This document shows, in pieces, positions 1-62,954 of a stretch of DNA of 64,000 nt. A program made the translations under genes and the position numbers. The notes beneath the pieces were generated by a model, which did no database searches, had not been told where the DNA came from, and was given only the letters and a program-made list of their open reading frames with translations. The stretch is from the NCBI GenBank assembly GCA_033391075.1, contig JAWPMV010000001.1, forward strand, positions 620,001 through 684,000, given 5' to 3'. This stretch comes from Bacteroidia bacterium (GTDB lineage: Bacteria > Bacteroidota > Bacteroidia > J057). Position 1 is the stretch's first letter, and each line of letters begins with the position of its first letter.

Positions 1-1397
1 GCAGCCAGGTTTCGTCTGTAAAAGGCATTAGATTCTTCGGCAGTAGAAAAACCAGCATATTGGCGAATGGTCCAGGGACGCACAGCATACATACTGGAAT
101 AAGGGCCTCTGAGGAAAGGAGGAAGTCCTGCAGCAAAGTCTAAATGATCCAGACTTTCCACATCATCATCCTTATATAAAGATTTGATCTCAATGTCTTC
201 CGGCGTTTCCCAGTTCAATTGGTTTTCTCCAAAAAGATCATCTTCTGAAAAATGAGCTTTCTGCACAAAGGTATCTCCCTGAAAGTCTTTCCAAACCTTA
301 TCGATCAAACGAGTCGTGAGTTCTTCTATATAATAGGCACCTCCAGCCGGATCGAGTACCTGATCAAGGTAGGATTCTTCTCTCAGGAGATGATGAATGT
401 TTCTGCTTAGTCTTTGATTGAGGGCCAGATCGCGATCTTTACCCGGATCAAAATCAGAAAGAATCAGGCCATGAACGCCACCCAGAATGGAAGCGATAGC
501 TGAACTGCTAAGTCTGAGAAGATTGCTATGTTTTTTATTGGGCTCTGTATGCCAAAGAGGGGCATGGGCCATAACGAAAGGAGACTGTAACTCCTTATCG
601 TGAATACCTAAAACTTCCAACATGCGTGCAAAAAGAACCCTAAAGGCACGAAATTTTGCCAATTCCGGGAAAAAGGCAGTATCGACCGGGAAATTGAAAG
701 CCAGGTTCTCTATAATTTCTTTAGTCTCAATTCCTTTGGACTGCATACTCTCGATCAGGTTGAGGCTGCGGATCAGAGCAAAGGTAAGTTGCGCACTGAT
801 TTTTACAGGTGGATCCCAGAGCTCTATACTGAGGGTACGGAAATAAGGAGAAGCTTCACTGCTTTTTACCAACTTGATGAGTTCTTCTGTCGAAGTCTCA
901 CGAGGCGTTGCATAGGTTCCTGTCAAAAAGCTTAAGTCCTGAGATTTGCTTTCCAGGTATTGTTGTAGCTTTTGAATTAATGTTGGGTCGGCATCCCGAG
1001 AGGAGAAATGGAGAGCTGTATCTTTCAGGGAAAAGAAAGGGAGTAATTCCAGAAAATCCTGAGGAGCATCGATATAAAAAGCATGTGCGTCTGCTTCTTC
1101 TGCTGTCCGTAGCTGATCCAGGGGATCTCCATAGCGAAAGGACAATTTCTGGATCAATTGCCAGGGCATGCCCGGAAGATTGAAGAGATTGCCGCGTCTA
1201 AAGGAGGAGAGCCGATCTTTGATTTTGTCAAGATCCGAGTTTCTATAATATGGGGCGAGTTTTATCCCTTTTTCAAATTCCCAATTCAGGTCTTCAAAAC
1301 TTCGGCCCTTGAGATCCTTGACTATTTTTTCTTTCCATTCCTGATCGCTGATTGCAGGAAATTCGGAAAATAATGATTGCTCTCGCTTATTATCCAT
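1..1397 (-). CDS. Methylmalonyl-CoA mutase, small-subunit-like barrel fused to large subunit (5' part only)
   Basis: Reading the minus strand from the ATG at 1397 gives one uninterrupted frame of about 465 codons that runs off the left edge. Residues 1-380 resemble the small subunit (MutA) of adenosylcobalamin-dependent methylmalonyl-CoA mutase: an [11 protein letters not shown]-like start and a barrel ending with [13 protein letters not shown] near residue 349. At about residue 394 the text becomes the beginning of a large subunit (MutB): LNWETPE, then [31 protein letters not shown] and FYRRNLAA at the edge. The B12-like C-terminal domain normally present in the small subunit is missing between them. 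The enzyme family interconverts methylmalonyl-CoA and succinyl-CoA in propionate metabolism. The active-site and cobalamin-binding parts lie outside the window. It is transcribed divergently from the Fe-S carrier gene, with only 105 bp between them. The mutase identity is secure; the domain arrangement is read directly. Confidence 0.9.
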
Positions 1398-1502
1398 AAA
1401 TGCCGATTGCGGTACTGAAACTATCGAAAGGTTAGTGTCCTGTTATTTCCAACTAAATGCGTAAATTTACGTTTACAAAGATTGATTAGCAATTTTCATT
1501 TA

Positions 1503-1856
1503 ATGACAGAATTAACTCCAACACAAGAATCATCCGTTTCTCTGACTCCTACAGCTATTGAAGCCTTAAAGGAAATTCAGCGTACAGATAATCTACCTGC
1601 AGATAAGCCTTTGCGTGTAGGTGTAAAAGGAGGAGGATGCTCCGGCCTGACCTATGTGCTCAGTTTTGATGAAAAGCAGGAGCTGGATGATGAATGGATG
1701 ATAGATGGAATACGTGTGATCATGGATAAGCGGCATGCCCTCTATGTCTATGGCATGGAAGTGGACTACCAGAGTGGACTCAATGACCGGGGATTTATTT
1801 TTAATAATCCCAATGCGAAAGATAGTTGCGGATGCGGGACTTCTTTCTCAACCTGA
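1503..1856 (+). CDS. A-type iron-sulfur cluster carrier (IscA/HesB family)
   Basis: A 117-residue protein of the HesB/IscA/ErpA family, which accepts and passes on Fe-S clusters to apo-proteins in the cytoplasm. The three conserved cysteines are present: C46 in VKGGGCSGLTY and C109/C111 in DSCGCG near the C-terminus. Length is normal for the family. The ATG at 1503 is preferred over an in-frame TTG at 1482, because the extra seven residues are not family-like. It is not next to iscS, iscU or suf genes, so it is a stand-alone carrier. It ends before a strong hairpin at 1883-1909 shared with the convergent SPOR gene. Whether it is IscA-, SufA- or ErpA-like cannot be settled by eye. Confidence 0.93.
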   Translation: MTELTPTQESSVSLTPTAIEALKEIQRTDNLPADKPLRVGVKGGGCSGLTYVLSFDEKQELDDEWMIDGIRVIMDKRHALYVYGMEVDYQSGLNDRGFIFNNPNAKDSCGCGTSFST

Positions 1857-1881
1857 TCAGAATCATGTTTTAATATACACG

Positions 1882-1915
1882 AAAAGGGCCACCATAGCGG
1901 TGGCCCTTTCTTGTT
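1882..1915. terminator. Bidirectional intrinsic terminator
   Basis: A perfect 11-bp stem AAAGGGCCACC / GGTGGCCCTTT (1883-1893 and 1899-1909) with a 5-nt loop. A-rich sequence lies on the left and T-rich on the right, so it can stop transcription both from the Fe-S carrier gene and from the convergent SPOR-domain gene. Confidence 0.85.
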
Positions 1916-1936
1916 TGTTTGGATTTGGATAATTCT

Positions 1937-3073
1937 CTATCTCAGATACACCAGGAATCCTGCCTGTGTACCCGTTGCCGCTCTGTATTGTTCCTGAAAG
2001 GCTCTCGCCTCTGTTTCTGTTGTAAAAGGACCTACCTGAACTTTGTATAAGGCCTTGCCACTATTTTCTTCTTTGTTGATAAAGACATTCTTGCCGAATG
2101 TTTGTTGGAGGTATTCGACATGACTTCTCATGAAGTAACTCTGTTCGAAAGCTCCCGTTTGTATGCCGTAACCGTCAAAGCTGTTTCCATTTTCTTCCTT
2201 CATATCGGGAATAACTTCATAGCTACTGGCTTCTTCCTTTTCCTGCCAGTCAGGATTAATCAGTGCTAGCTCTGATACCCGTTCTTTCTCCGCATTAAAT
2301 TCCTGGATGATATCTTTTCTCTGATGTGGAGCGCCTCCATCTACTTCTTCCTCAAAATCAAAACGCTGACTTACTACCGGATCCAGCTCTAAATAGGTTT
2401 CCTCTTTTACAAAATTTGAGGAAGTTGCCTGACTGGAATAAGTCTCCGGCTGAGCTTCTTCTCTTTGCTCCTGTAAATCTTCTATAATGATACCATCGGA
2501 TTGCGATCCCATAATTCCTTCCCTTGCCGGCTGTGCATTTCCTTCGTAGTTCTGAACCTCAGCTTCTTCAAAAAAGAAGTCACCCAATTCCCTACGAGAG
2601 GTGCTGGACTCTCCATCTTCCTGCTGAATCTCTACTCTTCTACTGGCTCCTCTTTCTGGGAGGAAATTTTGTAATTGTTCATAAAGGGTTTCAGGACTTA
2701 CAAATCCGCTAATCTCAGCTTGCTGCTTGCTGTACTCATCGAAAATGAGAAAGCTTGGCTTATTTACTTCAAAATCTACCGCTTTGTAGCGATCGCTTTT
2801 ATGGGTCCAACTTTCGTCGATCTCATAAATCAAAAAATGCTGCTGGATCAGTTCTCCGAGTTTGCCATCCTGGAAGGTATAGTTTTCTATACCTTTACAG
2901 TCGTCATTTCCTTTAAAGGAAAAATAAAGAATATAAGGGCGGGATTCTTCAAAAGCTTCTTTACGAAGTTGGTCGAAACTTCCTTCATAAAAGGAGAAAC
3001 TTCTGTAATTTAGGGCATGCGCCGAAATGCATAATGATAAGAGCGTAGGAAGAACGATTGCTGCGTATCTCAT
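1937..3073 (-). CDS. Secreted thioredoxin-like protein with C-terminal SPOR domain
   Basis: A 378-residue protein with a signal peptide (hydrophobic run ending SAHALNYRS near residue 20). Residues ~40-140 match a thioredoxin_7/DUF255-like fold: YILYFSF, then CKGIENYTF, FLIYEID, and KPSFLIFDEY at the cis-Pro position. Only the second cysteine of the usual CxxC remains (NDDC), so disulfide oxidoreductase activity is unlikely. A low-complexity acidic and Gln-rich linker covers ~145-300. Residues ~305-378 form a SPOR domain (YGIQTGAFEQ, ALYKVQVGPFTTETEARAF), a fold that binds denuded peptidoglycan strands at division sites. The inferred role is an envelope protein anchored to peptidoglycan by SPOR. 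The pairing of an inactive thioredoxin fold with SPOR is unusual but clearly in one frame. Confidence 0.8.
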   Translation of the reverse strand: MRYAAIVLPTLLSLCISAHALNYRSFSFYEGSFDQLRKEAFEESRPYILYFSFKGNDDCKGIENYTFQDGKLGELIQQHFLIYEIDESWTHKSDRYKAVDFEVNKPSFLIFDEYSKQQAEISGFVSPETLYEQLQNFLPERGASRRVEIQQEDGESSTSRRELGDFFFEEAEVQNYEGNAQPAREGIMGSQSDGIIIEDLQEQREEAQPETYSSQATSSNFVKEETYLELDPVVSQRFDFEEEVDGGAPHQRKDIIQEFNAEKERVSELALINPDWQEKEEASSYEVIPDMKEENGNSFDGYGIQTGAFEQSYFMRSHVEYLQQTFGKNVFINKEENSGKALYKVQVGPFTTETEARAFQEQYRAATGTQAGFLVYLR

Positions 3074-3266
3074 ATCTGAGCGTGCTTGAGTTCCGACAGA
3101 CGGAAAGCTCGATGAAAGGGCGAGTCTTTGTCTATCTGTTCACTCAAGTAGAGGAAAAATATTCCATAAACCAAATAATCAAATCTGTGTATCATTTTTG
3201 TGTTGTAAGATTTGAAATAGGGAATAACAATTCTCTGTATTAGCTTCCGTGAGATAAATTTATCTG

Positions 3267-8429: not shown

Positions 8430-9542
8430 ATGCAAATTCTGCTACTCATTTGTAGTATCTGTTTGCTGCTTTACCTCTGCTTTGTCCTGTGGAGCAGCTG
8501 GAATTTCTCTCGCGGACCTATAGCGGAGAAGCCTCCACAACATTTGGAGCCTTTGCTGAGCGTGCTGATCCCTGCCAGAAATGAAGAAGCGCAAATTGAA
8601 TCCTGCCTGAAAAGTATCCTGGAACAAGTATGTTCGGCCCGCATAGAAGTCTTATTGATAGATGATCATTCTACGGATCGAACACGACTACTTGCTGAGG
8701 CAATGAGGCATGAGTATCCTCAGTTAAGAATCCAGAACTCCGAAGGGAATGGAAAGAAAGCTGCATTAGCTAGTGGGATTAAGGCTGCCAAAGGGAGCAT
8801 TATTTTTCAAATAGATGCCGATTGTCGGGTAGGAAAGAAATGGATGGAAAGTATGTGGGCTTATTTTGAAGCGGGGGCTGATTTTGTCTCAGGCCCGGTC
8901 GCTCTGGAATCAGAAACTCCTTTTCAAACTATGCAGGCATTGGAGTCTATGGGACTAGTAGTCTTCGGAGCAGGTTTTCTCATAGGAGGCAGACCGAATA
9001 TGGCCAATGGAGCAAATATGGCATATCGAAAAGAGGTATTCGAAGAAATACAAGGCTATGAGGGCATTGACCATGTTGCTTCGGGAGATGACGAACTCCT
9101 ATTGCAAAAGATAAGACTGGCTGGCAAGTATAAGATAAGCTTTTGCAAAAAGCCGGAAGCTATTGTTCGCACTACGGCTCCAAAAAACTGGAAGGACTTC
9201 AAGGCTCAGCGCATTCGTTGGGTGAGTAAATCTCGCGCTTATTTACATAAAGGCCCCAATTTGATTCAGGGCATTGCTTATTTGGGCTTCCTGACGTTTC
9301 CCCTCTTACTCGTCGCTTCTTTTCAGGATATTCGCTACTTATATCTGGCAAGTCTCTACTTTCTGATCAAGCTGTGTATAGATCTTATAATCATGCTTCA
9401 GGCTGCTCGATTTTTTCATAACTTGCACATGTTACGCTGGTTTCTGCCATTGACTTTTCTCTACATACCCTATGTAATCTGGATCGGAATGGCGGGTATC
9501 CTGGCAAAAAGCTATAGCTGGAAAGGAAGGAATGTATCATGA
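8430..9542 (+). CDS. Membrane-anchored family 2 glycosyltransferase
   Basis: A 370-residue inverting glycosyltransferase of the GT-A fold. An N-terminal membrane helix (residues 2-25) precedes the catalytic domain: LSVLIPARNEEAQIESCL, VLLIDDHSTD, the metal-binding DAD (IFQIDADCR), GDDELL for the catalytic base region, and QRIRW (the QxxRW motif of processive GT2 enzymes). Two or three membrane helices follow at ~285-360. The likely job is transfer or polymerisation of a sugar on the cytoplasmic face for an exported glycan or glycolipid. The donor is unknown. The stop overlaps the next gene's start (ATGA), implying translational coupling. Confidence 0.88.
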   Translation: MQILLLICSICLLLYLCFVLWSSWNFSRGPIAEKPPQHLEPLLSVLIPARNEEAQIESCLKSILEQVCSARIEVLLIDDHSTDRTRLLAEAMRHEYPQLRIQNSEGNGKKAALASGIKAAKGSIIFQIDADCRVGKKWMESMWAYFEAGADFVSGPVALESETPFQTMQALESMGLVVFGAGFLIGGRPNMANGANMAYRKEVFEEIQGYEGIDHVASGDDELLLQKIRLAGKYKISFCKKPEAIVRTTAPKNWKDFKAQRIRWVSKSRAYLHKGPNLIQGIAYLGFLTFPLLLVASFQDIRYLYLASLYFLIKLCIDLIIMLQAARFFHNLHMLRWFLPLTFLYIPYVIWIGMAGILAKSYSWKGRNVS

Positions 9543-9814
9543 ACAATGAACTCACAGAGCTACAATTTCAAATTCTGGATTCTGTTTATTTTGTCGAAAG
9601 CTTTGACCATATCGTGGAAGAAGCAATGGAGTCTACTGCCGTGGTCAAGGATGAGCTACGGACTATGATTGACCGGGGCCTGATTCAGGTCATGATGTTT
9701 GATAAGGGCAAAGGAGATTTTGTAAGAACCAGCATTTTTGATGCTGATAATATGCAGGAATATTCCTTTCTGGCGACCAAGGATGGATTGTTGAAACACA
9801 ATGGCTTTCGCTAA
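9539..9814 (+). CDS. Small conserved-type protein of unknown function
   Basis: A 91-residue soluble acidic protein with no recognised family signature. The helical N-terminal half (LTELQFQILDSVYFVESFDHIVEEA, then ELRTMIDRGLIQVM) and following strands look like a small winged-helix fold, but no DNA-binding residues stand out. Its ATG overlaps the glycosyltransferase stop by 4 bp and it is followed 24 bp later by the DppC-type permease, so it is expressed with both. The close packing argues it is a real gene. Function not known. Confidence 0.65.
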   Translation: MNNELTELQFQILDSVYFVESFDHIVEEAMESTAVVKDELRTMIDRGLIQVMMFDKGKGDFVRTSIFDADNMQEYSFLATKDGLLKHNGFR

Positions 9815-9838
9815 GTAATGCTTAGATAAAGGAGAACT

Positions 9839-10942
9839 ATGGATAGTCCCCGCCAGCTTGCCTGGAAAAAGTATAAAAAGAATCCTACGGCCCTTTTCGG
9901 CCTGGGCTACTTTTTCCTGTGCCTCATTCTGGCAATCTTTGGCTATCTCTTCAGTCCGGATTCTACTCCCTATGCAAATCGCCAAATCCTGGAGCTTGCC
10001 AAGAAAGCGCCAGGAACACGAGCCTGGATTCTAAAGCTGCCACAAGAAGAAGGGGAGGAAAGTGGATTGCTGGCTCGCATGTTTGTAGGGGCAAAGGCCA
10101 ACTACCGGCCAATTGCAATTCAAGGCTTGGAAAGTATATCCTTGGATGGGGATCGATTGAGCTACACCAATTATGGAGGAGGGGAATTTGATCTGGCTTT
10201 ATCAGAATTTGGATTGGATGCGGCGAGCTTTGACCGAAATAGTTTTCTGGAACAATATGCAGAGGAACTCTTCTTTTTTCTGGGGACGGATGGCTTTGGT
10301 CGAGATCTTTGGAGCAGGATTCTGTTGGGAACCCGAATCAGTTTGACGGTAGGGCTGCTGGCAGTGAGTTTAAGCTTGCTGATCGGGATTGTCCTGGGAA
10401 GTTTTGCTGGCTACTTTGGGGGCTGGGTAGATCGTGTCATTATGTGGTTGATTTCAGTGATGTGGTCATTACCGACTTTGCTGCTGGCCCTTTTAATTAG
10501 TTTTTTATTAGGAAAAGGTTTTTGGCAGGTCTGTATAGCTATCGGTATTTCTATGTGGGTAGAAGTAGCGCGTATTGTTCGGGGGCAAATTCTGAGTGTG
10601 AGGGAGCTACAATACACAGAAGCTGCCAGAGCATTAGGATTTAAAGACCTCAGGATTATGTTTCGCCATGTCCTCCCCAATGTGATCAGTCCGATAATTG
10701 TGGTTGCTGTCGCTAATTTTGGTTCTGCGGTCTTGATTGAGTCGGGATTGAGTTTCTTGGGGATAGGAGTAGAGGTACCAATTCCCAGTTGGGGGAGCAT
10801 GATTGCCGAAGGATATACCTATATTGTTTTTTCTACGGGTAAATGGTTAGCTTTCTTCCCGGGAATAGCATTAATATTGCTTGTGGTTAGTATCAATCTG
10901 ATTGGAATAGGGTTGAGAGATGCTTTAGATGTAAATATATAA
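9839..10942 (+). CDS. ABC transporter permease, DppC/OppC type
   Basis: A 367-residue inner-membrane permease of the dipeptide/oligopeptide class. The first membrane helix (~22-40) is followed by a ~110-residue periplasmic insertion that is longer than in E. coli DppC. The conserved core follows: FGRDLWSRILLGTRISLTVGL, then EAARALGFKDLRIMFRHVLPN (the EAA loop that contacts the ATPases) and GLSFLGIGVEVPIPSWG near the end. A good Shine-Dalgarno-like AAGGAG precedes the ATG. No DppB, DppD, DppF or binding-protein gene is adjacent, so partners must be elsewhere; this split arrangement is common in Bacteroidota. Substrate not deducible. Confidence 0.9.
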   Translation: MDSPRQLAWKKYKKNPTALFGLGYFFLCLILAIFGYLFSPDSTPYANRQILELAKKAPGTRAWILKLPQEEGEESGLLARMFVGAKANYRPIAIQGLESISLDGDRLSYTNYGGGEFDLALSEFGLDAASFDRNSFLEQYAEELFFFLGTDGFGRDLWSRILLGTRISLTVGLLAVSLSLLIGIVLGSFAGYFGGWVDRVIMWLISVMWSLPTLLLALLISFLLGKGFWQVCIAIGISMWVEVARIVRGQILSVRELQYTEAARALGFKDLRIMFRHVLPNVISPIIVVAVANFGSAVLIESGLSFLGIGVEVPIPSWGSMIAEGYTYIVFSTGKWLAFFPGIALILLVVSINLIGIGLRDALDVNI

Positions 10943-52710: not shown

Positions 52711-55113
52711 TTATTCGTATTTCAGGGCTTTAACCGGATCAGATACGGCAGCCAGATAAGCTTGATGACTTACTGTAACCATAGCGATCAGCAAAGCGGC
52801 CAATGCTGCCAGGATGAAAGGCAGCCAGGGCATGTCGATTTGATAGGAGAATCCCGATAGCCAATTTCTCGCAAGCAAAAGGGAGGCAGGCCAGGCAATG
52901 ATATTGGCCAGCAAAACCAGTTTCAAAAAATCACTGGACAGCATCTGCATGAGTTGAGGGATGGAAGCACCCAGAACTTTGCGTATGCCAATCTCCTTGG
53001 TCTTTTGTTCAGCAGTAAAAGCCGCCAATCCATAGAGTCCCATGCAGGAAATGATGATGGCCAGGATGGTTAAATAAAGGAACATGGTTCCAAAATTCTC
53101 CTGTTGCTCGAAGAGAGAACCAAAGCTTGCATCTAAAAAGGTGTAGCGGAAAGGATGAGAAGGCTCTACTGTCGTCCAGACTTTTTCTACTGAAGCTATC
53201 GTCTCACTCATATTTTCAGACTCCAACTTGAAGGAAGTCCACCAAAGATTGGAGCGAGTAGAAAGGATCATAGGTTTGATGTCGGAAGTAAATCCTTCAA
53301 TGTGAAAATCCTTTACCACTCCTATCACCTTGCCATACTTTTTCTGACCATTGTCGAAAGGATTAACGACTCGTTTTCCTATAGGATTTTCTATGTTAAA
53401 ACTTCTTACTGCAGCTTCATTAAAGATATAGGTTGTTGTTGAGTCATCTTCCAGTTCTTTTCGGAAGGCTTCCCCATCTGCCATTTCTAGTCCCAGGGTT
53501 TCAATAAAACCATAATCCACTTCCATATTCCATAAGGGAAGTTGTTCCTTTCGCCCTTCCAACTCAAACATATTCTGATTGGGGGTATCTCCGGGTAAAT
53601 AAGAAGATCTCGCAACACCCAAAACCCCAGGAATCTTCTCAAATTGCCCTTTAACATCCTCGAAGGTTTCTGCCACCTTATTCGTCTGTATTGGAACTAC
53701 CATTACCTGATCTCCTTCAAATCCCAGATTTTTATTATGCATAAAAGAGATTTGGAGGAAAATGACACTCATACCGATGATGAGGATAATGGAAGCAGCA
53801 AATTGAACCACAACCAGGGCTTTTCTAAAAAAGGCTCCTTCTTTGGTTTTGGTCATATCACCTTTCAAAATCTTGATTGGCTGAAAGCCGGAAAGAAATA
53901 GGGCTGGATAACTACCGGAGAATAATCCATAAATCAAGGTAACCAATAAGGCAAAACCCAGGGTAGTCCCAAAACTTTCGTTTAGTAGCACAAGGTCAGT
54001 ATTCATCACCTGGTTGAAACCTGGTAAAAAGAATTCGACCATGATAAAAGCCAAAAACAGGGCAATGATGCTTTGGAGGATGGACTCAATCAAAAATTGA
54101 ATTACCAACATAGCTCTACTGGCTCCGGAGACTTTTCGGATCCCTACTTCTTTCGCTCGTTTTGAAGAACGGGCGGTAGAAAGGTTCATGAAGTTGATAC
54201 CTGCAATGAGCAAAACCAGAATAGCAACAGCAATAAATACATAGATATACATGATATCACTGTTTTGCTTAAGCTCCCAGTCTCTATGAGAGTGGAGGTG
54301 GATACTGGCAATGCTATGCATGTCATATTCAAAGCTATTCCCTCCCTCCAGAAATTCCTCCATGGTGATTTGTAGAAATTGCTCGACATTGGGCTTTATA
54401 TAGCCCGTGAACTTTTCAGACATTTTATCTCGAAAAGCTATCTGATCAACTTCGGGCCTCAGCTTCACATAGGTATAAAAATTGTTGCTGATCCAGACGG
54501 GTTGTAGGTCATTCTGCGGAATGAAAAAGTCGAAATGAAAATGGCTTTTCCCTTCTGGTTCGGCAACTATCCCTGCCACGATGTAATCCTGGCGATCATC
54601 ATAGCGAATGATCTTACCCATAGGATTTTCGTCCCCAAAGAATTTACGCGCAGTTTCTTCTGTGAGAACCATAGAATTGTCGTCCTTCAGGGCCGCCTCA
54701 GGATCTCCATGAAGGAAGGTGTAGTCAAAAATCTGAAAGAAAAAACTATCGGCTCTTGTACCATCCTGGATATAGATTTTCTTGTCTTCATGGGCCAGCA
54801 TGATCTCCTGGCGCATGGGACGAGTTCGTGTAGCAGTAATAACTTCTGGAAATTCAGTTCGCAAGGAGTTGGCCATGGGATTACAGGATACCGGAGCATC
54901 CATATCCAGGCCCATCAGACTTGCTTTGATCCCTATGCGGTAGATTTGATCATAGTCCTTGATATGCTTCTCATAGCTGGTTTCATCTTGTACATAGAGG
55001 AAAACGATGATACTCACCATGAGTCCCAGGGCCAGGCCCAGGATATTTATCGCGGAATATGCTTTATTTTTGGTAAGGTTGCGAAAAGCTACCTTAAGAT
55101 AATTTTTTAGCAT
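52711..55113 (-). CDS. MacB/FtsX-type ABC permease (tandem copy 2)
   Basis: An 800-residue paralogue of the preceding permease with the same layout: N-terminal helix (INILGLALGLMVSIIVFLYV), MacB periplasmic domain, AKEVGIRKVSGASRAMLVIQFLIES and TKEIGIRKVLGASIPQLMQMLSSDFLKL units, each with helices after it. It lies 71 bp upstream of copy 1 (in transcription order) and 116 bp after the ATPase gene. The two permeases could act as a heterodimer on one ATPase pair, or as alternative homodimers with different substrates. Tandem permeases like this are frequent in Bacteroidota exporter loci. Confidence 0.93.
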   Translation of the reverse strand: MLKNYLKVAFRNLTKNKAYSAINILGLALGLMVSIIVFLYVQDETSYEKHIKDYDQIYRIGIKASLMGLDMDAPVSCNPMANSLRTEFPEVITATRTRPMRQEIMLAHEDKKIYIQDGTRADSFFFQIFDYTFLHGDPEAALKDDNSMVLTEETARKFFGDENPMGKIIRYDDRQDYIVAGIVAEPEGKSHFHFDFFIPQNDLQPVWISNNFYTYVKLRPEVDQIAFRDKMSEKFTGYIKPNVEQFLQITMEEFLEGGNSFEYDMHSIASIHLHSHRDWELKQNSDIMYIYVFIAVAILVLLIAGINFMNLSTARSSKRAKEVGIRKVSGASRAMLVIQFLIESILQSIIALFLAFIMVEFFLPGFNQVMNTDLVLLNESFGTTLGFALLVTLIYGLFSGSYPALFLSGFQPIKILKGDMTKTKEGAFFRKALVVVQFAASIILIIGMSVIFLQISFMHNKNLGFEGDQVMVVPIQTNKVAETFEDVKGQFEKIPGVLGVARSSYLPGDTPNQNMFELEGRKEQLPLWNMEVDYGFIETLGLEMADGEAFRKELEDDSTTTYIFNEAAVRSFNIENPIGKRVVNPFDNGQKKYGKVIGVVKDFHIEGFTSDIKPMILSTRSNLWWTSFKLESENMSETIASVEKVWTTVEPSHPFRYTFLDASFGSLFEQQENFGTMFLYLTILAIIISCMGLYGLAAFTAEQKTKEIGIRKVLGASIPQLMQMLSSDFLKLVLLANIIAWPASLLLARNWLSGFSYQIDMPWLPFILAALAALLIAMVTVSHQAYLAAVSDPVKALKYE

Positions 55114-55138
55114 GTTTGACTGTTGAAATAATCAGAGT

Positions 55139-55232
55139 AAAAGTTCAAGTTCAGGTGCAAGGATCAAGTTCAATTGAGCTTTGGAGCTATCAATCAGTTG
55201 AACTTGCTCTTGAAATTTGATCTTGCACTTTA
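55139..55232. repeat. Imperfect inverted repeat between ATPase and permease genes
   Basis: GTGCAAGGATCAAGTTCAA on the left is partly matched by the complement of the right side (TTGAACTTG and TTTGATCTTGCACTT). CAAGTTCA also recurs directly. It could form a long irregular hairpin and lower permease expression relative to the ATPase; this is speculative. Confidence 0.4.
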
Positions 55233-55922
55233 TATCGCCTGGGCCTTGGTCGCATTGCGCTCAGATACAATCTGGCCATCCAGTAAATTCACAATACGGC
55301 TGGAATAACTTGCATCATTGGCGGAGTGTGTAACCATGATGATGGTAGTTCCGGCTTCATTCAATTCGCAGAGGAGCTCCATGACTTCATTACCATTGGA
55401 ACTATCCAGATTTCCCGTAGGCTCATCCGCCAGGATAACTTCAGGATTGGTTACCAAAGCTCTGGCTACCGCTACTCTTTGTTGCTGACCTCCCGAAAGT
55501 TGCTGAGGAAAATGATTGGAACGATGAGCAATACCTATTCTTTCCAAAATCTCATTTACTTTTTCCTTTCTTTCCTTTGCAGAAATCTTGTTGTAAATGA
55601 GAGGAAGCTCGACATTTTCAAAAACTGTCAGTTCGTCAATGAGGTTGAAGTTCTGAAAGACAAATCCGAAATGTTTTTTACGGACTTTTGATCTTTCTCT
55701 TTCGCTAAGGTTGGCCATTTCTTCACCAAGGAACCCATAGGAGCCTTTTTCTGGCTTGTCCAAAAGTCCAAGGATGTTGAGCATAGTAGATTTTCCACAA
55801 CCCGAAGGTCCCATTACGGATACAAATTCGCCTTTTGAAATCTCGATACTGATCTCATTGAGGGCAGTAGTTTCGATTTCGTCGGTTCTGTAGATTTTGC
55901 TCAGGGCTTTTAAAGTAATCAT
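55230..55922 (-). CDS. ABC transporter ATPase, MacB/LolD type
   Basis: A 230-residue ATPase with Walker A GPSGCGKST, Q-loop FVFQNFNLI, signature LSGGQQQR, Walker B VILADEPTGNLDS and switch His VTHS. The GNLDS sequence and overall length are typical of the MacB/LolD/FtsE class that powers FtsX-type permeases by mechanotransmission. It is encoded 12 bp after the HlyD-type adaptor gene and before the two permeases, so it probably drives both. The catalytic Glu is present, so it should be active. Confidence 0.96.
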   Translation of the reverse strand: MITLKALSKIYRTDEIETTALNEISIEISKGEFVSVMGPSGCGKSTMLNILGLLDKPEKGSYGFLGEEMANLSERERSKVRKKHFGFVFQNFNLIDELTVFENVELPLIYNKISAKERKEKVNEILERIGIAHRSNHFPQQLSGGQQQRVAVARALVTNPEVILADEPTGNLDSSNGNEVMELLCELNEAGTTIIMVTHSANDASYSSRIVNLLDGQIVSERNATKAQAI

Positions 55923-55934
55923 ATCAATGTTGAA

Positions 55935-57191
55935 TTATTGGCTAAGGATGATCTTTTCATATTCTTTATAGGCTTCATAGGAGGAAGTGATTATTTCTTC
56001 ACCTTCCTCAAGTCCTTCAAGAACCTCATAGTAACTGGGGTTCATGCGTCCGATACGTATTGTTCTTTTATATGCTTCTTTCTTTTGGGGCCCGACGACA
56101 TATACAAACTGTCCTCCGGAACTATGGAAATAAGCCCCCCGAGGAATTTTGACGGCCATACTGGCTTCAGATAATTCAAGCCTGACCTGTACAGATAGGC
56201 CTGTCCGTATGGCTTCAGGTGCTTTTTCTACAAAAAGGAGGTCAATCTCAAAGTTGCCGGCTATCACCTCTGGGAGAACTTTTTTAACTTCTAATTCAAC
56301 CAGATTTCCATCAAAGGAAAATCGAGCCCTTTGTCCAGGCTTTACCTGACTCAGATAAAATTCATTTACCTGTCCTTTTACTTTATATCCTTTGAGGACA
56401 TCTATTTTAGCTATGGTTTGATTAGGGGAAAAAGATTCTCCTATGACTGGATCGAAGGAGGAAAGTCTACCACTAACAGGCGCTCTCACTTGCAGACGTT
56501 CCATATTTTCATGGATGACTTCCAGGTTTCTTTCCATGAGTACCAATGAACGATTGATTCGTCTGAGCTGCACTTCATTATTCTTACCGGTTACATTTAC
56601 ATTGTCCTGAAGGAAATCTTTTTTCTTCAGGCGGTATTCGTAATCCCCCTGGCTATCGAGAAAGTCATTCTCCGGAATGACGCCTCCCTCAAAAAGCTGA
56701 GTGTCTACCTGAAAGTCTCGCTCATCATTTTGGAGTTGATACTGGATATCGATCAGAGATTCCTGCAGGTTCCTCTGATCTTTATCCAAAGCCAGTTTCA
56801 GATTTTGGAGATTGTTCATCTGTTCTACAATAGCAGTCTCTTGGGTCATATATCCCAGCATCACAGAAGGATTGGCGAGTTTCAGAAGGGGAGTACCGGC
56901 CTTCACGACGACACCGTCCTCAATGAAGACCTTTTCAACGGTACCCCCTTCGGGTGTATTGACCAGGACGGAACTGATCGGTTCTAATGTTCCGTCAATT
57001 AATATGATATCTTGAAATTCTGCACGCTCGGCTGTGCGAATCGAGATGCCGGAGGAATCGAGATTTAGCTTATAAACCTTCTCACTCATGGCTGAGTATC
57101 CCCAGGCTGAAAGGGCCAGTACCATCAGGCCTCCCAGGAGATAGAAAGTCTTGCGCTGACTCCATTTTTTCTTTTCGATCTTTTTATCCAT
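55935..57191 (-). CDS. HlyD/RND-type periplasmic adaptor protein
   Basis: A 418-residue membrane-fusion protein. An N-terminal membrane anchor (~15-35) precedes a lipoyl half (GTLEPISSVLVNTPEGGTVEKVFIEDGVVVKAGTPLLKL). A long coiled-coil hairpin (~120-240, LKLALDKDQRNLQESLIDIQYQL) is followed by the second lipoyl half (LQVRAPVSGRLSSFDPVIGESFSPNQTIAKI), a beta-barrel and a membrane-proximal domain. It links the inner-membrane permease to an outer-membrane channel. No TolC-like gene is in the locus. As the first gene of the operon it follows the candidate sigma-54 promoter and enhancer at 57239-57358. Confidence 0.94.
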   Translation of the reverse strand: MDKKIEKKKWSQRKTFYLLGGLMVLALSAWGYSAMSEKVYKLNLDSSGISIRTAERAEFQDIILIDGTLEPISSVLVNTPEGGTVEKVFIEDGVVVKAGTPLLKLANPSVMLGYMTQETAIVEQMNNLQNLKLALDKDQRNLQESLIDIQYQLQNDERDFQVDTQLFEGGVIPENDFLDSQGDYEYRLKKKDFLQDNVNVTGKNNEVQLRRINRSLVLMERNLEVIHENMERLQVRAPVSGRLSSFDPVIGESFSPNQTIAKIDVLKGYKVKGQVNEFYLSQVKPGQRARFSFDGNLVELEVKKVLPEVIAGNFEIDLLFVEKAPEAIRTGLSVQVRLELSEASMAVKIPRGAYFHSSGGQFVYVVGPQKKEAYKRTIRIGRMNPSYYEVLEGLEEGEEIITSSYEAYKEYEKIILSQ

Positions 57192-57238
57192 GTATCAGGT
57201 TTGTTTGTCTACTGGCTTGTGCCAATGACAATTAGAAG

Positions 57239-57254
57239 TACCAAGGACATACCA
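57239..57254 (-). promoter_or_regulatory. Candidate sigma-54 promoter of the exporter operon
   Basis: On the minus strand TGGTATGTCCTTGGTA matches the -24/-12 consensus TGGCAC-N5-TTGCA at the GG and several other positions, though the -12 GC reads GT. It ends about 48 bp before the adaptor ATG. An NtrC-family activator gene is the divergent neighbour, which makes this reading attractive. Confidence 0.4.
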
Positions 57255-57325
57255 AAAGATTTTTTTTCGCTAAATGATTGAAATGCAACCATCTGAGGTT
57301 TGTATCGTCTTTCCTTTGTGTTCGC

Positions 57326-57358
57326 TATCGGACAATCGGGTGACCGATACCGGACAAT
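57326..57358. promoter_or_regulatory. Candidate enhancer (UAS) for the NtrC-family regulator
   Basis: Two direct repeats TA(T/C)CGGACAAT start exactly 22 bp apart (57326 and 57348), about two helix turns. Between them lies a perfect inverted repeat ATCGG-GTGA-CCGAT. The site is ~75-100 bp upstream of the candidate sigma-54 promoter, a normal enhancer distance, and ~36 bp before the regulator gene. Confidence 0.55.
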
Positions 57359-57393
57359 TTGCAGTTTTTTAAGTGCGCTTTTAGATACGTCAA

Positions 57394-58764
57394 ATGAAGA
57401 AAACTACTGCCACCATTTTGGTCATCGATGATGATGACGATGTTTTGTTGTCAGCCGAATTATTGCTGAAGCGAAACTACACCCGTATTCTCACGGACTC
57501 GCATCCGCGTGACCTTAACCGACTGATTTCCACCGAGAAACCGGATTTGATATTGCTCGATATGAACTATCGTGTCGGCTTTAATGATGGGGAAGAAGGC
57601 CTCTATTGGTTGAGCCATATTCATGATATAAATCCTGAAATTCCGGTGATCCTAATGACCGCTTATGGGGAGGTTGAACTGGCTGTTCAGGCTTTGAAAA
57701 TGGGAGCCAATGATTTCATTTTAAAGCCCTGGAAAAACGAGCAGCTTCTGGAGAAAATTGAGAAAGCTTTGGAACAATCAGCTTCAAATAGTTCTCGATT
57801 GAAGAAAAAAAATAAAAATTTTCAGGAGCAAAGCCAGGAAGAATTTCGCTTTGTGATTGGGGAGTCTGATGCTATGAAAGAAGTCATGCAGGTAGTCGGA
57901 AAAGTGAGTGCAACTACTGCCAATGTACTGCTTCTCGGAGAGAGCGGAACGGGCAAGCAACACATTGCCCGGAAGATTCATGCGATGTCAGAACGAAAGG
58001 ATAAAGCCTTTGTCCATGTGGATCTGGGTTCTCTTTCTGAAACCCTCTTTGAAAGCGAATTATTTGGTCATCGAAGAGGAGCTTTCACAGATGCAAAAGA
58101 AGATAAAAAAGGCCGCTTTGAAATGGCAGCCGGGGGCACCATATTCCTGGATGAAATTGGGAATTTACCCCTTAACCTCCAGGCAAAATTATTAGGTGTA
58201 TTGCAGGATCGGAAAGTAAGCAGGATCGGGGAAGGGGAGGAAAGAAAGGTCGATGCGCGATTCATTTTTGCAACCAATGCACCCCTTGCTCAATGGGTCG
58301 ATGAAGGTAAATTTCGCGAAGACTTGATGTATCGCATCAATACCATAGAAGTATCCCTGCCACCTTTGCGAGAGCGAAAGGATGATATTCGAGAATTCAT
58401 CAAATACTACGTAAGATTTTATGCTGCCAAATATGATAAAGTAGGCTTGAAAGTAGAGAAAGGCGCTTGTCAATTGCTGAAAACCCATAATTGGCCTGGC
58501 AATATCCGTGAGCTGCAACATGCCATCGAAAGAGCAGTAATTATGTCTGAAGGGGATGAGATAAAGGTCAAGGATTTTAAACTGAAAAAAACAGCCTCGG
58601 GAAATGGAAGTATGGACTTGGAAAACTTAAACATTCAGGACATTGAAAAACTCCTGATTGATAAAGCCCTTTCCAAACATAGGGGGAATATCAGTAAGGC
58701 AGCCAAAGACCTGGGGCTGACACGCGCAGCACTCTACAGGCGCATGGAAAAATACAATCTCTAA
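57394..58764 (+). CDS. NtrC-family sigma-54 response regulator
   Basis: A 456-residue regulator with three domains. The receiver has an acidic pocket VIDDDDDVL and the phospho-acceptor Asp56 in ILLDMNY. The AAA+ domain has Walker A GESGTGKQ, the sigma-54-contacting loop GAFTDA, Walker B GGTIFLDEIGNLP and the R-finger region FREDLMYRIN. The Fis-type HTH is at the end (NISKAAKDLGLTRAALYRRMEKYNL). It activates sigma-54 promoters after phosphorylation by its partner kinase, encoded 10 bp downstream. The divergent exporter operon and the enhancer-like repeats between them are the likely target. Confidence 0.96.
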   Translation: MKKTTATILVIDDDDDVLLSAELLLKRNYTRILTDSHPRDLNRLISTEKPDLILLDMNYRVGFNDGEEGLYWLSHIHDINPEIPVILMTAYGEVELAVQALKMGANDFILKPWKNEQLLEKIEKALEQSASNSSRLKKKNKNFQEQSQEEFRFVIGESDAMKEVMQVVGKVSATTANVLLLGESGTGKQHIARKIHAMSERKDKAFVHVDLGSLSETLFESELFGHRRGAFTDAKEDKKGRFEMAAGGTIFLDEIGNLPLNLQAKLLGVLQDRKVSRIGEGEERKVDARFIFATNAPLAQWVDEGKFREDLMYRINTIEVSLPPLRERKDDIREFIKYYVRFYAAKYDKVGLKVEKGACQLLKTHNWPGNIRELQHAIERAVIMSEGDEIKVKDFKLKKTASGNGSMDLENLNIQDIEKLLIDKALSKHRGNISKAAKDLGLTRAALYRRMEKYNL

Positions 58765-58774
58765 TTCGCTTTTT

Positions 58775-60163
58775 GTGATAAAACGATTCTCCATTCAGAT
58801 CATCATACGGGTCATCATGCTCTTGGCAAGTTGTCTGGTACTGGCCTATTTTTATTCGAGTGGCTATTGGTTTAGCCTGGCAGGTTTGATGATCCTGATC
58901 GCTATACAGGTTTACACCCTCAATGATTATGTCAATGATACCAATCATTCCCTTTCCAAATTTCTGGATGCCCTGAAAAGTGAGGATTATTCTGTCTACT
59001 TTTCTCCATCTTCCAAAGGGAGTTCTTTCACCGAACTATATCGTGACTTTAACACCATCATTTCCATTTATAAAAAGAATAAAGTAGAGAAGGACGCCCA
59101 GCACAAGCATTTCCAGCAAATCCTGGAATACATACGACTCGGAGTGATTTCGATCAATCAGGAAGATCTGGAGGAAGAGCAGAGCATTCATGAGATCCTC
59201 TTTTTCAATACAGCTGCGGGCGAAATTTTGGGACAACCCAAGCATAAATACTGGCACAGACTGGAGAGACAAGTACCCTGGTTTGGCAAAGAAATCAGGC
59301 AATTGAAGGATGGTGGCAAGAAATTGCTGGACTTGGAAATGGGAGGGGAAAGGAAACAACTTTCCCTCAATGTGATCAAGGTCCGATTTATGGAGAAAGC
59401 CAATTTGATTATCAGTTTTCAAGACATCAATTCGGAAATTGAGCAAAAGGAAATAGAAGCCTGGCACAATGTGATCCGGGTATTGGCGCATGAAATGATG
59501 AATTCTTTTACTCCCGTAAGCTCTCTGGCCTCTACCATCAAATCCATGACGGAAAATGGCAATGGAAGGCTCATCGAGATGGATCATATCAATGAGGAAG
59601 CTATTCGGGATATCAATCTGGCTGCCAGCACAATCAATAAACGCTCAGAAGGCCTGATGGAATTTGTCAATGACTATCGAACCATTTCTCAGGTTCCGGT
59701 TCCGCGGATTGAGCCGGTCAATGTAAAAGAATTTCTGAAGGGCATTTATTTCCTGATGAAACCGAGCCTGAAGGAAAAATCCATCACCCTCATTCCTGCC
59801 AAAGTGCCCCCCAAAGCAACTTTGTACATAGATGAAAAAATGATCGAGCAGGTTCTGATCAACCTTATCGGGAATAGTATTCATGCCCTTTCCCATAAAG
59901 CCGATCGCTGTATCAAATTTAGTTATGAATTGAAACCGGGGCAGAGCATATTGAGCATAGAAGACAATGGGAAAGGAATTCCGGATGAGATCCTCAAGCA
60001 GGTATTTATCCCATTTTTTACTACCCGTAAAGATGGATCCGGTATCGGTCTGAGTTTATCCAAGACCATCATGCGCCAACACAAAGGACATTTGTTGATC
60101 AATTCTCAGGAAGGCCAGTTTACCCAGATTTCCCTGGTGTTTAATAATCCGGATTTTAGCTAA
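58775..60163 (+). CDS. Membrane sensor histidine kinase
   Basis: A 462-residue kinase starting with GTG (58775). Two closely spaced helices (~9-50) with almost no periplasmic loop suggest sensing within the membrane or the cytoplasm. A PAS-like segment (~110-215) precedes the H-box VLAHEMMNSFTPVSSL. The ATPase domain has N-box NLIGNSIHAL, G1 DNGKGIPDE, F-box FFTTR and G2 GSGIGLSLSK. The LAHEMMNSFTP form is typical of Bacteroidota kinases paired with NtrC regulators that control efflux. It follows its response regulator by 10 bp. Stimulus unknown, possibly envelope stress or a membrane-active compound. Confidence 0.95.
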   Translation: MIKRFSIQIIIRVIMLLASCLVLAYFYSSGYWFSLAGLMILIAIQVYTLNDYVNDTNHSLSKFLDALKSEDYSVYFSPSSKGSSFTELYRDFNTIISIYKKNKVEKDAQHKHFQQILEYIRLGVISINQEDLEEEQSIHEILFFNTAAGEILGQPKHKYWHRLERQVPWFGKEIRQLKDGGKKLLDLEMGGERKQLSLNVIKVRFMEKANLIISFQDINSEIEQKEIEAWHNVIRVLAHEMMNSFTPVSSLASTIKSMTENGNGRLIEMDHINEEAIRDINLAASTINKRSEGLMEFVNDYRTISQVPVPRIEPVNVKEFLKGIYFLMKPSLKEKSITLIPAKVPPKATLYIDEKMIEQVLINLIGNSIHALSHKADRCIKFSYELKPGQSILSIEDNGKGIPDEILKQVFIPFFTTRKDGSGIGLSLSKTIMRQHKGHLLINSQEGQFTQISLVFNNPDFS

Positions 60164-60245
60164 GCTTTCTCGCCATCATAAAAAAACTGCCATCCCAGCC
60201 TTAAACTAAGAGCCAGGATGAAATTTTTAACATAGAGACCAGGAT

Positions 60246-61937
60246 TTATCTAATCCGATACTCAATCAAGCCCTCCAGGACATAGCGTTTTACTCCATCT
60301 GAATGGATGAGCACCTTGCCTTTAGCGGTAGTTCCCCACTTTAGTTTCCCATTCTTTTTGAAGTTTTTGAGTTTGGTTTTTTCTTTGATGTCAGGGGTAT
60401 GGCCAACGAAAGGTCTGACCCAGAGCACCCTTTGTTTGTCTTCAGTAGGTTTGGTGGAAGGGTCATGGACAGAAAGTAAAGTGGCATCCGAATTCTTTAG
60501 ATCTCCCTTGGTATTCAGGCCATAACCGACCACGGTAACATAGTGTCCGCCCGTTCTGTGGAATTCCTTTTTCTCTGCTTCATATCGTCCCCAAAGAAGA
60601 ATGCAGATAGATTTAGGGTTGATGACTCGTTTTTTAAAAGCTTCAACATCCAGGGATTCCTGATTTGGCTTATAGGTCAGATAATCCAGATTTTTAAGGG
60701 AATTATGATCCGATGTCGCACTTATATGCTCAATGTATGCACCCTCCAATTTATAGCCTTTTTCTTCGATATAGCGCTTCACGGATCTGGTCATATCAAG
60801 CATGCTTGTTCCTCCTCCGAAAGCATCCATATAATCCTCACTTCCCAAAAGCTTAACCATCTCAATCTGTGAGTTTTTGTGCGCCAGTTTCGGATAGCCA
60901 TTTTTGATCAAATACATCATACTATTGGAAACGGCGGTCGGCCCACAAAAGGAATTACTGGCAAACTCCAATTCCTTTTTCTGCTTCTTGGTGAATTTTC
61001 GTGAGTTTTTGTATTCCTCGATCTTGGGCATGTGCTGCCATATGTCTTCGGTTTCCTCAAACTTCCCGCTATAAAAATCGGGGGCATGAATGACTCCTTT
61101 TTCTGCAGAAATTTCTATATCTACCAATCTAACACCTTCTGTTTTTTTGAGGGCATCTCTTTGGGCCTTGAAACTATACCATACGAGATTACTCCAGAAA
61201 GACTCTTTGGGTGATTTACCTCCATTTTTATAGCTTCGGTAAATGGCCATGAAGTACTTTTTCCCTTTGTAGCTATATTTTTCATAGTCCATCATCCGTA
61301 GCCCACTTTTCCGCTTTTTTCTCCTATCACTATTGAAACTTTCCCATTTATCATAAGAAACCAATTGGGTAGATTTATCAGCTCCTTTGCTATAAATTGC
61401 CAGAAACTGAAACTTCGCATCCCTGGTTTTGAAGGGATCCATATCTGTGAGAAAGGCCTTCTTGTTTTTATATTTTTTTGCCTGACTAAATAAATCTGAG
61501 CGATTTTTGAATTTGTGGATGTACTGCTCTCGTTTCCCTTTGGCAAAAAGACCGATGTAGATTCGTTTACCATTTCGGTTGAGCATAGATTCAATATCAT
61601 CCAGATAGTAGCCTTTCTTTGCTTCTTCTTCGAAGAGCTTGACAAATTCATTCCATCCTGATCTGCTTATGATTTTACTATGGACTTTGGTTTTCATCCA
61701 AATGCCCCAAAAGCGACCAGATTTGCCTTTTTTGACATGCTTGCCTTCAAAATCAGTCAATTGATAGCCTTTGGATCGTAGTTCTTTGTGCTTGGCGATA
61801 AAACTATCCCAACTGGCATTGTTCCAGTAAGTAACGGGAACGCTTACTTCCCGAAAGACGCCGGAAAAAGAAACTTGTGAAAAGCTGAGGGAAGAGCAAA
61901 GGAGGATAAAGAATAAAGAGAGTAAGCTGCGTTTCAT
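60246..61937 (-). CDS. Secreted C39-like cysteine peptidase with five BTRD-like repeats
   Basis: A 563-residue protein with a signal peptide (KRSLLSLFFILLCSSLSFSQ). Residues ~42-280 contain five degenerate ~40-50-residue repeats of the type W..F...(K/E)..A.KGY.L.D(F/I)E......(G)(R/K)....G(I/L)(W/F)...., resembling bacterial tandem repeat domain 1. The C-terminal domain (~325-510) fits the peptidase C39-like papain fold: Cys331 in SFCGPTAVSNSM, His465 in GGHYVTVVGYG and Asp492 in SVHDPST. The C-terminus ends in a basic tail region with no T9SS sorting sequence. It may be a secreted or periplasmic protease or bacteriocin-type peptidase. The substrate is unknown. Confidence 0.78.
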   Translation of the reverse strand: MKRSLLSLFFILLCSSLSFSQVSFSGVFREVSVPVTYWNNASWDSFIAKHKELRSKGYQLTDFEGKHVKKGKSGRFWGIWMKTKVHSKIISRSGWNEFVKLFEEEAKKGYYLDDIESMLNRNGKRIYIGLFAKGKREQYIHKFKNRSDLFSQAKKYKNKKAFLTDMDPFKTRDAKFQFLAIYSKGADKSTQLVSYDKWESFNSDRRKKRKSGLRMMDYEKYSYKGKKYFMAIYRSYKNGGKSPKESFWSNLVWYSFKAQRDALKKTEGVRLVDIEISAEKGVIHAPDFYSGKFEETEDIWQHMPKIEEYKNSRKFTKKQKKELEFASNSFCGPTAVSNSMMYLIKNGYPKLAHKNSQIEMVKLLGSEDYMDAFGGGTSMLDMTRSVKRYIEEKGYKLEGAYIEHISATSDHNSLKNLDYLTYKPNQESLDVEAFKKRVINPKSICILLWGRYEAEKKEFHRTGGHYVTVVGYGLNTKGDLKNSDATLLSVHDPSTKPTEDKQRVLWVRPFVGHTPDIKEKTKLKNFKKNGKLKWGTTAKGKVLIHSDGVKRYVLEGLIEYRIR

Positions 61938-62123
61938 GTAAATATTTATCTATTTAAAACTTAGTAAAATTTTTCGTTTGATGTAGATGGACAATTTTGA
62001 ACCGTCAAAAAAATCACTTGAATTTCCTCTAGGGAAGCAGAAGGCCGTATTTATGCTCAATTCATGGCTTTCAGCTTTGAGCAATTCCCTGTAACTTATC
62101 CGGATGTTTAAAGATTTCTTTGC

Positions 62124-62954
62124 ATGGGAAAGATTCTAAAAGAACCACTACTACACTTCCTGATTGTAGGTGCCTGCCTCTTTTTACTATACGAATGCAG
62201 CAATAAAAATACATCGGCTAATCGAGCTCAGATTATTCTTACGAATGCTGATCTGGAGCAGATGATTACAGCCTATGAAAATAATTGGAGCCAGGTCCCG
62301 GATACTCAGACTCTGAGAGGGCTGGTGGATGAGCATGTGCGGGGGGAAATCATGTATCAGGAAGCCTTACATCTTGGTCTTGAACACAATGATGAGATCA
62401 TCAAAAGACGACTTCGTCAGAAGTATGAGTTTTTAGTAAAAGACCTGTCCAGTATTCAACAGCCTGAAACAGAAGAACTGGAACGATTTTATGAGGAGCA
62501 TGCAGAATCCTATCAGTCTGCTCGAAAGATGAGTTTTTCCCACATCTACTTTAGCCCGGACAAAAGAAAAGAACCTCTGCTAGATGCACAGAAGCTATTG
62601 AAAGAGGTATCGAATAAAGACGTGAAGCCTGAAGCTTATGGAGATGATTTTCATTTGCAGCAGTTTTATGCTTCTCGCGACTATCGGGAGATTGTTCAGA
62701 ATTATGGCAAGCAGTTTAGCGATACCCTTTTTAGCCAATCATCCACAGGTTGGCAAAAGCCTATCCTTTCTGGATATGGGGTACATCTTGTACATATTTC
62801 TTCCATAGAAGAACCCGAATCTATTCCTTTTCCTGAGGTCAAGAATCTGGTCTTACAGGATTGGAAAGCAGAGCAACTCAAGCGCTTCAATGATGAGCTT
62901 TACGAAAGCTTATTAGGCAATTATGAAGTGATTCATCAGCATGATTTCTTTTAA
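62124..62954 (+). CDS. Membrane-anchored parvulin-type peptidyl-prolyl isomerase
   Basis: A 276-residue protein. An N-terminal membrane anchor (KEPLLHFLIVGACLFLLYECS) is followed by a helical chaperone-like region (LRGLVDEHVRGEIMYQEALHLGLEHNDEIIKRRLRQKYEFL) typical of PpiC/SurA-like proteins. A parvulin-like domain follows (ARKMSFSHIYFSP, GWQKPILSGYGVHLVHISSI). It would help fold exported proteins. Its stop overlaps the start of the HupE/UreJ-family gene by one base (TAATG). I recall such isomerase-HupE pairs as conserved neighbours in other bacteria. It may assist that membrane protein. Confidence 0.85.
   Translation: MGKILKEPLLHFLIVGACLFLLYECSNKNTSANRAQIILTNADLEQMITAYENNWSQVPDTQTLRGLVDEHVRGEIMYQEALHLGLEHNDEIIKRRLRQKYEFLVKDLSSIQQPETEELERFYEEHAESYQSARKMSFSHIYFSPDKRKEPLLDAQKLLKEVSNKDVKPEAYGDDFHLQQFYASRDYREIVQNYGKQFSDTLFSQSSTGWQKPILSGYGVHLVHISSIEEPESIPFPEVKNLVLQDWKAEQLKRFNDELYESLLGNYEVIHQHDFF

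Follow-up and report, generated by a model that had tools for sequence, protein, structure and literature searches.

A BTRD repeat barrel joined to a C39-like cysteine peptidase domain in a protein encoded by a Bacteroidia genome

The P0001 gene and its surroundings

The window, the whole 64,000-nucleotide stretch of a Bacteroidia genome that we analyzed, contains at positions 60246..61937 of the minus strand a gene encoding a protein of 563 amino acids (plus stop), referred to here as P0001. For this open reading frame (ORF), the first-pass annotation had singled out Cys331, His465, and Asp492; we found the frame and all three residues in those places, with the His in a GGH motif and the Asp in an HDP motif. 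The ORF also has a full-length homolog of the same architecture, P0002, in genome G006 (record JALEFZ010000006.1), to which it aligns by BLASTP with an E value of 2e-48 and 26% identity.

The N terminus of P0001 resembles a signal peptide. Residues 1 to 21 (61875..61937, minus strand) comprise MKR, a hydrophobic stretch, and SFSQ, with a putative cleavage site. The possibility that P0001 is a lipoprotein was rejected because this region, inspected by eye, has no lipobox. Export by the type IX secretion system (T9SS) was also rejected, as comparison with NCBIfam gave no match to a sorting tail at an E value of ≤1. Just outside the window, two adjacent and similar genes (L051:8262-9041 and 9081-9959, minus strand) each encode a T9SS sorting tail (TIGR04183). 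The lack of a recognizable tail in P0001, though two nearby gene products carry one, makes the periplasm a likelier location for the protein than the cell surface, judging from these sequences.

The gene next to the P0001 stop codon encodes a kinase and is convergent, with its own stop 82 bases away; on the other side, a PPIC-type gene starting at 62124 is divergent. This arrangement, convergent on one side and divergent on the other, suggests that the P0001 gene is probably monocistronic. A scan of positions 60100-62200 for promoters and terminators returned fewer sites than the mean of shuffled sequences. Within 52711-60163 of the window lies a MacB-type ABC set on the minus strand (permease, ATPase, and HlyD-like protein), and genes for a sigma-54 response regulator and a histidine kinase adjoin it on the plus strand.

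The N-terminal BTRD repeats and their barrel

The front half of P0001 is made of repeats. The Pfam family BTRD1 (PF17660), named "polyglycine hydrolase-like, structural repeat," matched the whole protein at 29.7 bits against a cutoff of 23 (E value of 5.9e-7), with two stretches significant singly. A repeat hidden Markov model (HMM) trained on 22 units from six relatives, with P0001 outside the training set, found five units in register in P0001 with a total of 78.6 bits, compared with 5.5 bits for the best of 200 shuffled copies; this model favors D-hydrophobic-[E/D] because its training units were cut with a pattern that required it. The front half of P0001 is a true BTRD1 region and not a chance resemblance. 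Three rounds of HMM iteration, in which P0001 itself was taken in, placed the limits of the units, all on the minus strand, at residues 24-65 (unit 1; 61743..61868; 45.9 bits), 75-117 (unit 2; 61587..61715; 39.1 bits), 127-170 (unit 3; 61428..61559; 28.2 bits), 178-223 (unit 4; 61269..61406; 37.9 bits), and 240-275 (unit 5; 61113..61220; 25.3 bits). The five repeats that had been described as WxxF...KGYxLxDxE are thus real as units, but the consensus was drawn too tightly: KGYxL occurs in only two of the five and WxxF in four, and D-x-[E/D] is the part common to every unit.

Single units are weak, and a stretch-by-stretch BTRD1 search of the genome at an E value of ≤0.001 missed P0001, listing instead three stretches of another protein. 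Counts of BTRD1 across genomes are therefore lower bounds: matches occurred in at least 6 of 60 relatives and at least 4 of 395 genomes of the phylum.

We modeled P0001 with AlphaFold2 from a two-row alignment. Although mean pLDDT was 47.1 overall, most of the barrel reached useful confidence, with four EHEE units modeled well and the fifth at low confidence. When the model was compared with the PDB using Foldseek, 7tpu_A was the sole match at an E value of ≤0.001, and VIA-align superposed the model on the 7tpu N-domain with a Z score of 14.6 (rmsd of 4.5 over 218 residues), the next score being 5.9. Identity between the two barrels in the structural alignment is 10%, and a profile search connects them at an E value of 0.0061; searches of solved structures by sequence, with whole P0001 and with a profile of its C-terminal domain, returned nothing convincing. 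The 7tpu N-domain is described as five EHEE repeats forming a barrel-like structure, and its authors state that the similar predicted proteins they identified all lacked functional characterization and that the function of the fold is a matter for future work (PMC9912923). With BTRD1 above the Pfam cutoff and a modeled barrel that matches this domain, the earlier identification of the front half as BTRD-like holds.

To which catalytic domains the barrel is joined was surveyed in 15 proteins, namely, P0001, P0002, and 13 more that our searches had retrieved. A beta-lactamase-type domain of family PF00144 is the partner in six (L005, L006, L008, L009, L013, and L052) and a PF13354 domain in one (L023). 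Two carry an M23 peptidase, which scored 37.0 bits in L053 and 27.0 bits, just under the cutoff of 28.7, in L003. C39-like domains account for another two, and in L050 a caspase domain sits behind Ig-like domains. The remaining three (L007, L028, and L004) have no recognizable catalytic domain, and L004 is itself below the BTRD1 cutoff at 16.5 bits. The barrel can lie on either side of the catalytic domain. Since it also occurs on beta-lactamase-type, M23, and caspase domains in the sampled relatives, the BTRD barrel behaves as an exchangeable module. The caspase in L050 is a second cysteine-peptidase partner, of a type unrelated to C39.

Three of the surveyed proteins have architectures that we record here in full. 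The L050 protein (631-3135, minus strand, genome G017) opens with a signal peptide-like segment and combines BTRD repeats with Ig-like domains and a caspase domain of the Peptidase_C14 family. In the L053 protein (97-2040, plus strand, genome G272), a single chain carries a LamG-like domain, an M23 peptidase, and BTRD repeats at the C terminus. The window's own genome encodes one more BTRD protein besides P0001, and its partner domain is of the beta-lactamase type (L008:1399-3390, plus strand, G000 contig C3).

One residue of the repeats stands out. In the eight barrels that we aligned, whose partners are C39-like, M23, PF00144, or none, each of the five repeats keeps the Asp of the L-x-D-x-E strand without exception (D62, D114, D165, D217, and D273 in P0001); the other seven of the 15 (L004, L008, L023, L028, L050, L052, and L053) were left out of this alignment. 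A pattern count covering all 15 proteins showed that L023, too, has five L-x-D-x-[E/D]-like strands, whereas L004 has three, L050 has them in mixed places, and L008, L028, L052, and L053 have at most one each. In 7tpu, the Asp is present in only part of the aligned stretches. Because the pattern count is so uneven across the 15 proteins, the 5-fold Asp marks a subgroup of barrels and is not a general feature. Within these strands hydrophobic and polar residues alternate, which suggests that the Asp and Glu point away from the helices and toward the center of the barrel.

The C-terminal C39-like domain

The back half of P0001 was compared with known peptidase families. The domain spans approximately residues 291-510 (60408..61067, minus strand), limits that come from homology and profile comparison. 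Its direct Pfam score is weak, with P0001 reaching 12.2 to 13.9 bits on Peptidase_C39_2 (PF13529) against a cutoff of 24, and P0002 had no C39 match in Pfam. The C-terminal domain of P0002 has relatives that are stand-alone proteins on two Deinococcus plasmids, one of them annotated as "C39 family peptidase." The Deinococcus protein P0004 (WP_249395661.1), which shares 30% identity with the C-terminal domain of P0001 (E value of 5e-21 for the pair), passes the PF13529 cutoff at 25.1 bits; P0003, the other Deinococcus homolog, falls below it at 16.4 bits.

Four residues of the predicted papain-like active site are invariant in a four-row alignment that spans two phyla: Gln301 (codon 61035..61037), the predicted oxyanion-hole residue; Cys331 (60945..60947), the predicted nucleophile; His465 (60543..60545), the predicted catalytic base; and Asp492 (60462..60464), the predicted third residue (all codons on the minus strand). 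They are also invariant in a nine-row alignment in which the two Deinococcus rows were swapped for seven viral C39-like rows. The invariance of the four residues, together with the passing score of P0004, supports, at the level of sequence, the first-pass assignment of the back half as C39-like.

The four-row profile was then compared with several sets of domains: 14 of 15 viral loci (7 lysin-type, 6 papain-like, and 1 LysA-like, with L135 left out as partial), 17 of 20 PF03412 loci, 16 of 20 NLPC_P60 loci, and 6 of 30 PF13529 loci, 13 of the latter having been cut out first and others judged by eye to be partial, papain-type, or in other frames. Against the viral lysin-type C39 domains, the profile gave a probability of 95.9 over 34 columns corresponding to the Gln-Cys segment. 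The viral loci had been fetched with a His-motif pattern, so matches around the His are partly selected; the Gln-Cys segment lies outside that selection. The probability was 84.1 for the LysA-like viral domain and 73.6 for the papain-like viral domains, as high as for the bacteriocin-type C39 domains, which gave 70.9 over 111 columns with Gln, Cys, His, and Asp aligned. NlpC/P60 scored 0.28, and the highest value from 40 column shuffles per set was 3.98. Six WCWAA-type C39_2 proteins of relatives reached 34.4 with the four-row profile (41.6 in an earlier comparison), and the two-row profile gave 17.7 against the bacteriocin-type set. Structure prediction added little for this half: the domain appears in the AlphaFold2 model as low-confidence blocks with pLDDT of ~22 to 41, and a dedicated model that included the seven viral rows had a mean pLDDT of 40.3. 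A VIA comparison of the low-confidence domain model gave one row with a Z score of ≥2, Atg4B at 2.4; we take Atg4B to be a papain-like protease and treated this row as noise.

Could the domain catalyze something other than peptide hydrolysis? The BtrH_N acyltransferase is described as close kin of the C39 families, with phytochelatin synthase placed in the same section (PMC10318531), and P0001 might by analogy be an acyltransferase, amidase, or transpeptidase. We consider this improbable, given that, among the viral, PF03412, NLPC_P60, and PF13529 sets compared, the profile matched domains of peptidase C39 and of lysin-type C39_2, and that Gln, Cys, His, and Asp are all retained. P0001 is probably a working thiol peptidase.

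The C39 resemblance, together with the MacB-type ABC genes some 3 to 7.5 kb away, raises a second alternative, namely, that P0001 is a maturation peptidase that trims an exported leader peptide in the manner of bacteriocin systems. This domain, however, belongs to a protein whose start resembles a signal peptide, and not to an ABC exporter, and the ORF translations around P0002 look different from those around P0001. The bacteriocin-type peptidase family PF03412, found in 13 of 40 genomes searched, was undetected in the window's genome, consistent with the first-pass view that bacteriocin processing is not implied. Its remark that no C39-domain ABC exporter is adjacent was borne out as well: the nearby ABC genes are of the MacB type, and Pfam detected no peptidase domain in them. 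With no PF03412 exporter peptidase detected in the genome and MacB-type genes as the nearest ABC genes, bacteriocin leader processing was set aside as unlikely, and we give a maturation role of any such kind hardly any weight.

Occurrence, proposed function, and comparison with known systems

To learn how widely the BTRD-C39 architecture occurs, we searched several collections. P0002, from a genome of the same family, was the one other protein found with the full architecture. Among 60 relatives, P0001 matched proteins in 6 genomes, and 2 of the 60 (the window's genome and G006) had the full architecture; among 296 genomes of the phylum there were 2 matches, one being the window's genome and the other confined to the repeats. 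A search of 13 family genomes with the two-row alignment matched 5, again with the full architecture in 2. The C-terminal domain searched against 395 genomes of the class matched 3, comprising the window's genome, G006, and one false match, G177 (L027, E value of 2e-4), which was dropped because it shows no such domain and the ORFs beside it read as a histidine kinase and other proteins. The four-row C-domain search of 395 phylum genomes returned the window's own genome only, and a scan of genome contigs yielded one locus (L014), whose protein is that of L002 in G006. No relative was found in viral contigs searched with P0001 or its alignments, in plasmids searched with P0001 at an E value of 1e-5, or in phages searched with P0001, P0002, and P0004; in plasmids, P0004 matched only the two Deinococcus records. 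The BTRD-C39 combination is rare but genuine, and we found no description of it in the open-license literature searched, most of which was represented by listings.

P0001 very probably has a BTRD plus C39-like architecture. Our main reading, to which we assign a probability of roughly 0.6, is that it is an exported C39-type cysteine peptidase, most likely periplasmic, whose barrel docks on the target. The protein would be exported via Sec and processed by signal peptidase I. It would dock on its target through the N-terminal five-unit barrel, while its papain-like domain at the C terminus would cut a peptide bond using Cys331, His465, and Asp492, with Gln301 in the oxyanion hole.

As for the substrate, a stem or bridge peptide of peptidoglycan is our tentative favorite, though as a specific proposal it is less than an even bet. 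It is favored because BTRD barrels have M23 and PBP-like partners, because two viral proteins combine a glucosaminidase with C39_2, and because Peptidase_C39_2 occurs in endolysins. A domain scan of these viral proteins, L136 and L139, found a glucosaminidase and a Peptidase_C39_2 domain in each, and Peptidase_C39_2 is listed as one of the endolysin domains (PMC13284279). Five further viral loci (L133, L141, L142, L143, and L144) resemble L136 and L139 by sequence.

The caspase partner and the protein-linker substrate of the fungal enzymes argue against a role confined to the wall, and with beta-lactamase-type partners of the barrel as well, the case for peptidoglycan is indirect. The enzyme might instead be a general secreted peptidase, with the barrel binding an exosite on a protein and the C39 domain cutting a Gly-rich or flexible linker. 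The only characterized barrel enzymes that we met in the literature cleave a polyglycine linker in the maize chitinase ChitA, and it has been speculated that the N-domain of these enzymes positions the substrate or binds an exosite (PMC9912923); bacteriocin-type C39 peptidases, for their part, remove double-glycine leaders (PMC10318531). The barrel of P0001 is nevertheless far in sequence from the fungal one, as its profile E value indicates, and we regard a linker-cutting role as somewhat unlikely.

The docked, exported peptidase of our main reading could also be one case of a broader scheme, in which the barrel is a general targeting ring of exported envelope hydrolases and has been exchanged between catalytic domains of the serine, metallo-, and cysteine types; in the subgroup that includes P0001, the Asp ring would be its ligand site, and P0001, as the C39-type member, would cut either peptidoglycan or Gly-rich peptides. 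This scheme as a whole is speculative, and we hold it doubtful. The presence of the same barrel on catalytic domains of unrelated chemistry nonetheless means that its ligand can be asked about independently of the enzyme, and the BTRD-C39 pairing offers one more handle on the purpose of the barrel. If the target is the cell wall, the barrel would be a new wall-targeting module.

Each half of P0001 has counterparts in known systems. The Deinococcus protein WP_249395661.1 and its relative WP_239052465.1 share the homologous C-terminal domain and a signal peptide-like start, but they are stand-alone proteins with no BTRD barrel. The viral proteins L136 and L139 have a C39_2 domain in which Gln, Cys, His, and Asp align with those of P0001 and are invariant; their partner domain, however, is a glycosidase, and BTRD is absent from both as scanned. 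With bacteriocin-type Peptidase_C39 (PF03412), P0001 shares the alignment of four catalytic positions, but it has no adjacent peptide exporter and no ABC transporter domain (none in Pfam at an E value of ≤1), and it begins with a signal peptide-like sequence. Similarity to Peptidase_C39_2 (PF13529) extends to the motifs CGPTA...GGHYVT..GY...HDP and to the conservation of Gln, Cys, His, and Asp in that order; P0001 differs in scoring under the family cutoff and in bearing a BTRD barrel. Finally, the fungal polyglycine hydrolases (Fvan-cmp, PDB 7tpu) have the same layout, an N-terminal barrel of five EHEE repeats followed by a secreted hydrolase domain. No PF00144 domain was found in P0001 by Pfam at an E value of ≤1: the catalytic half of the fungal enzymes is of the serine beta-lactamase type, whereas that of P0001 is of the C39 cysteine type.
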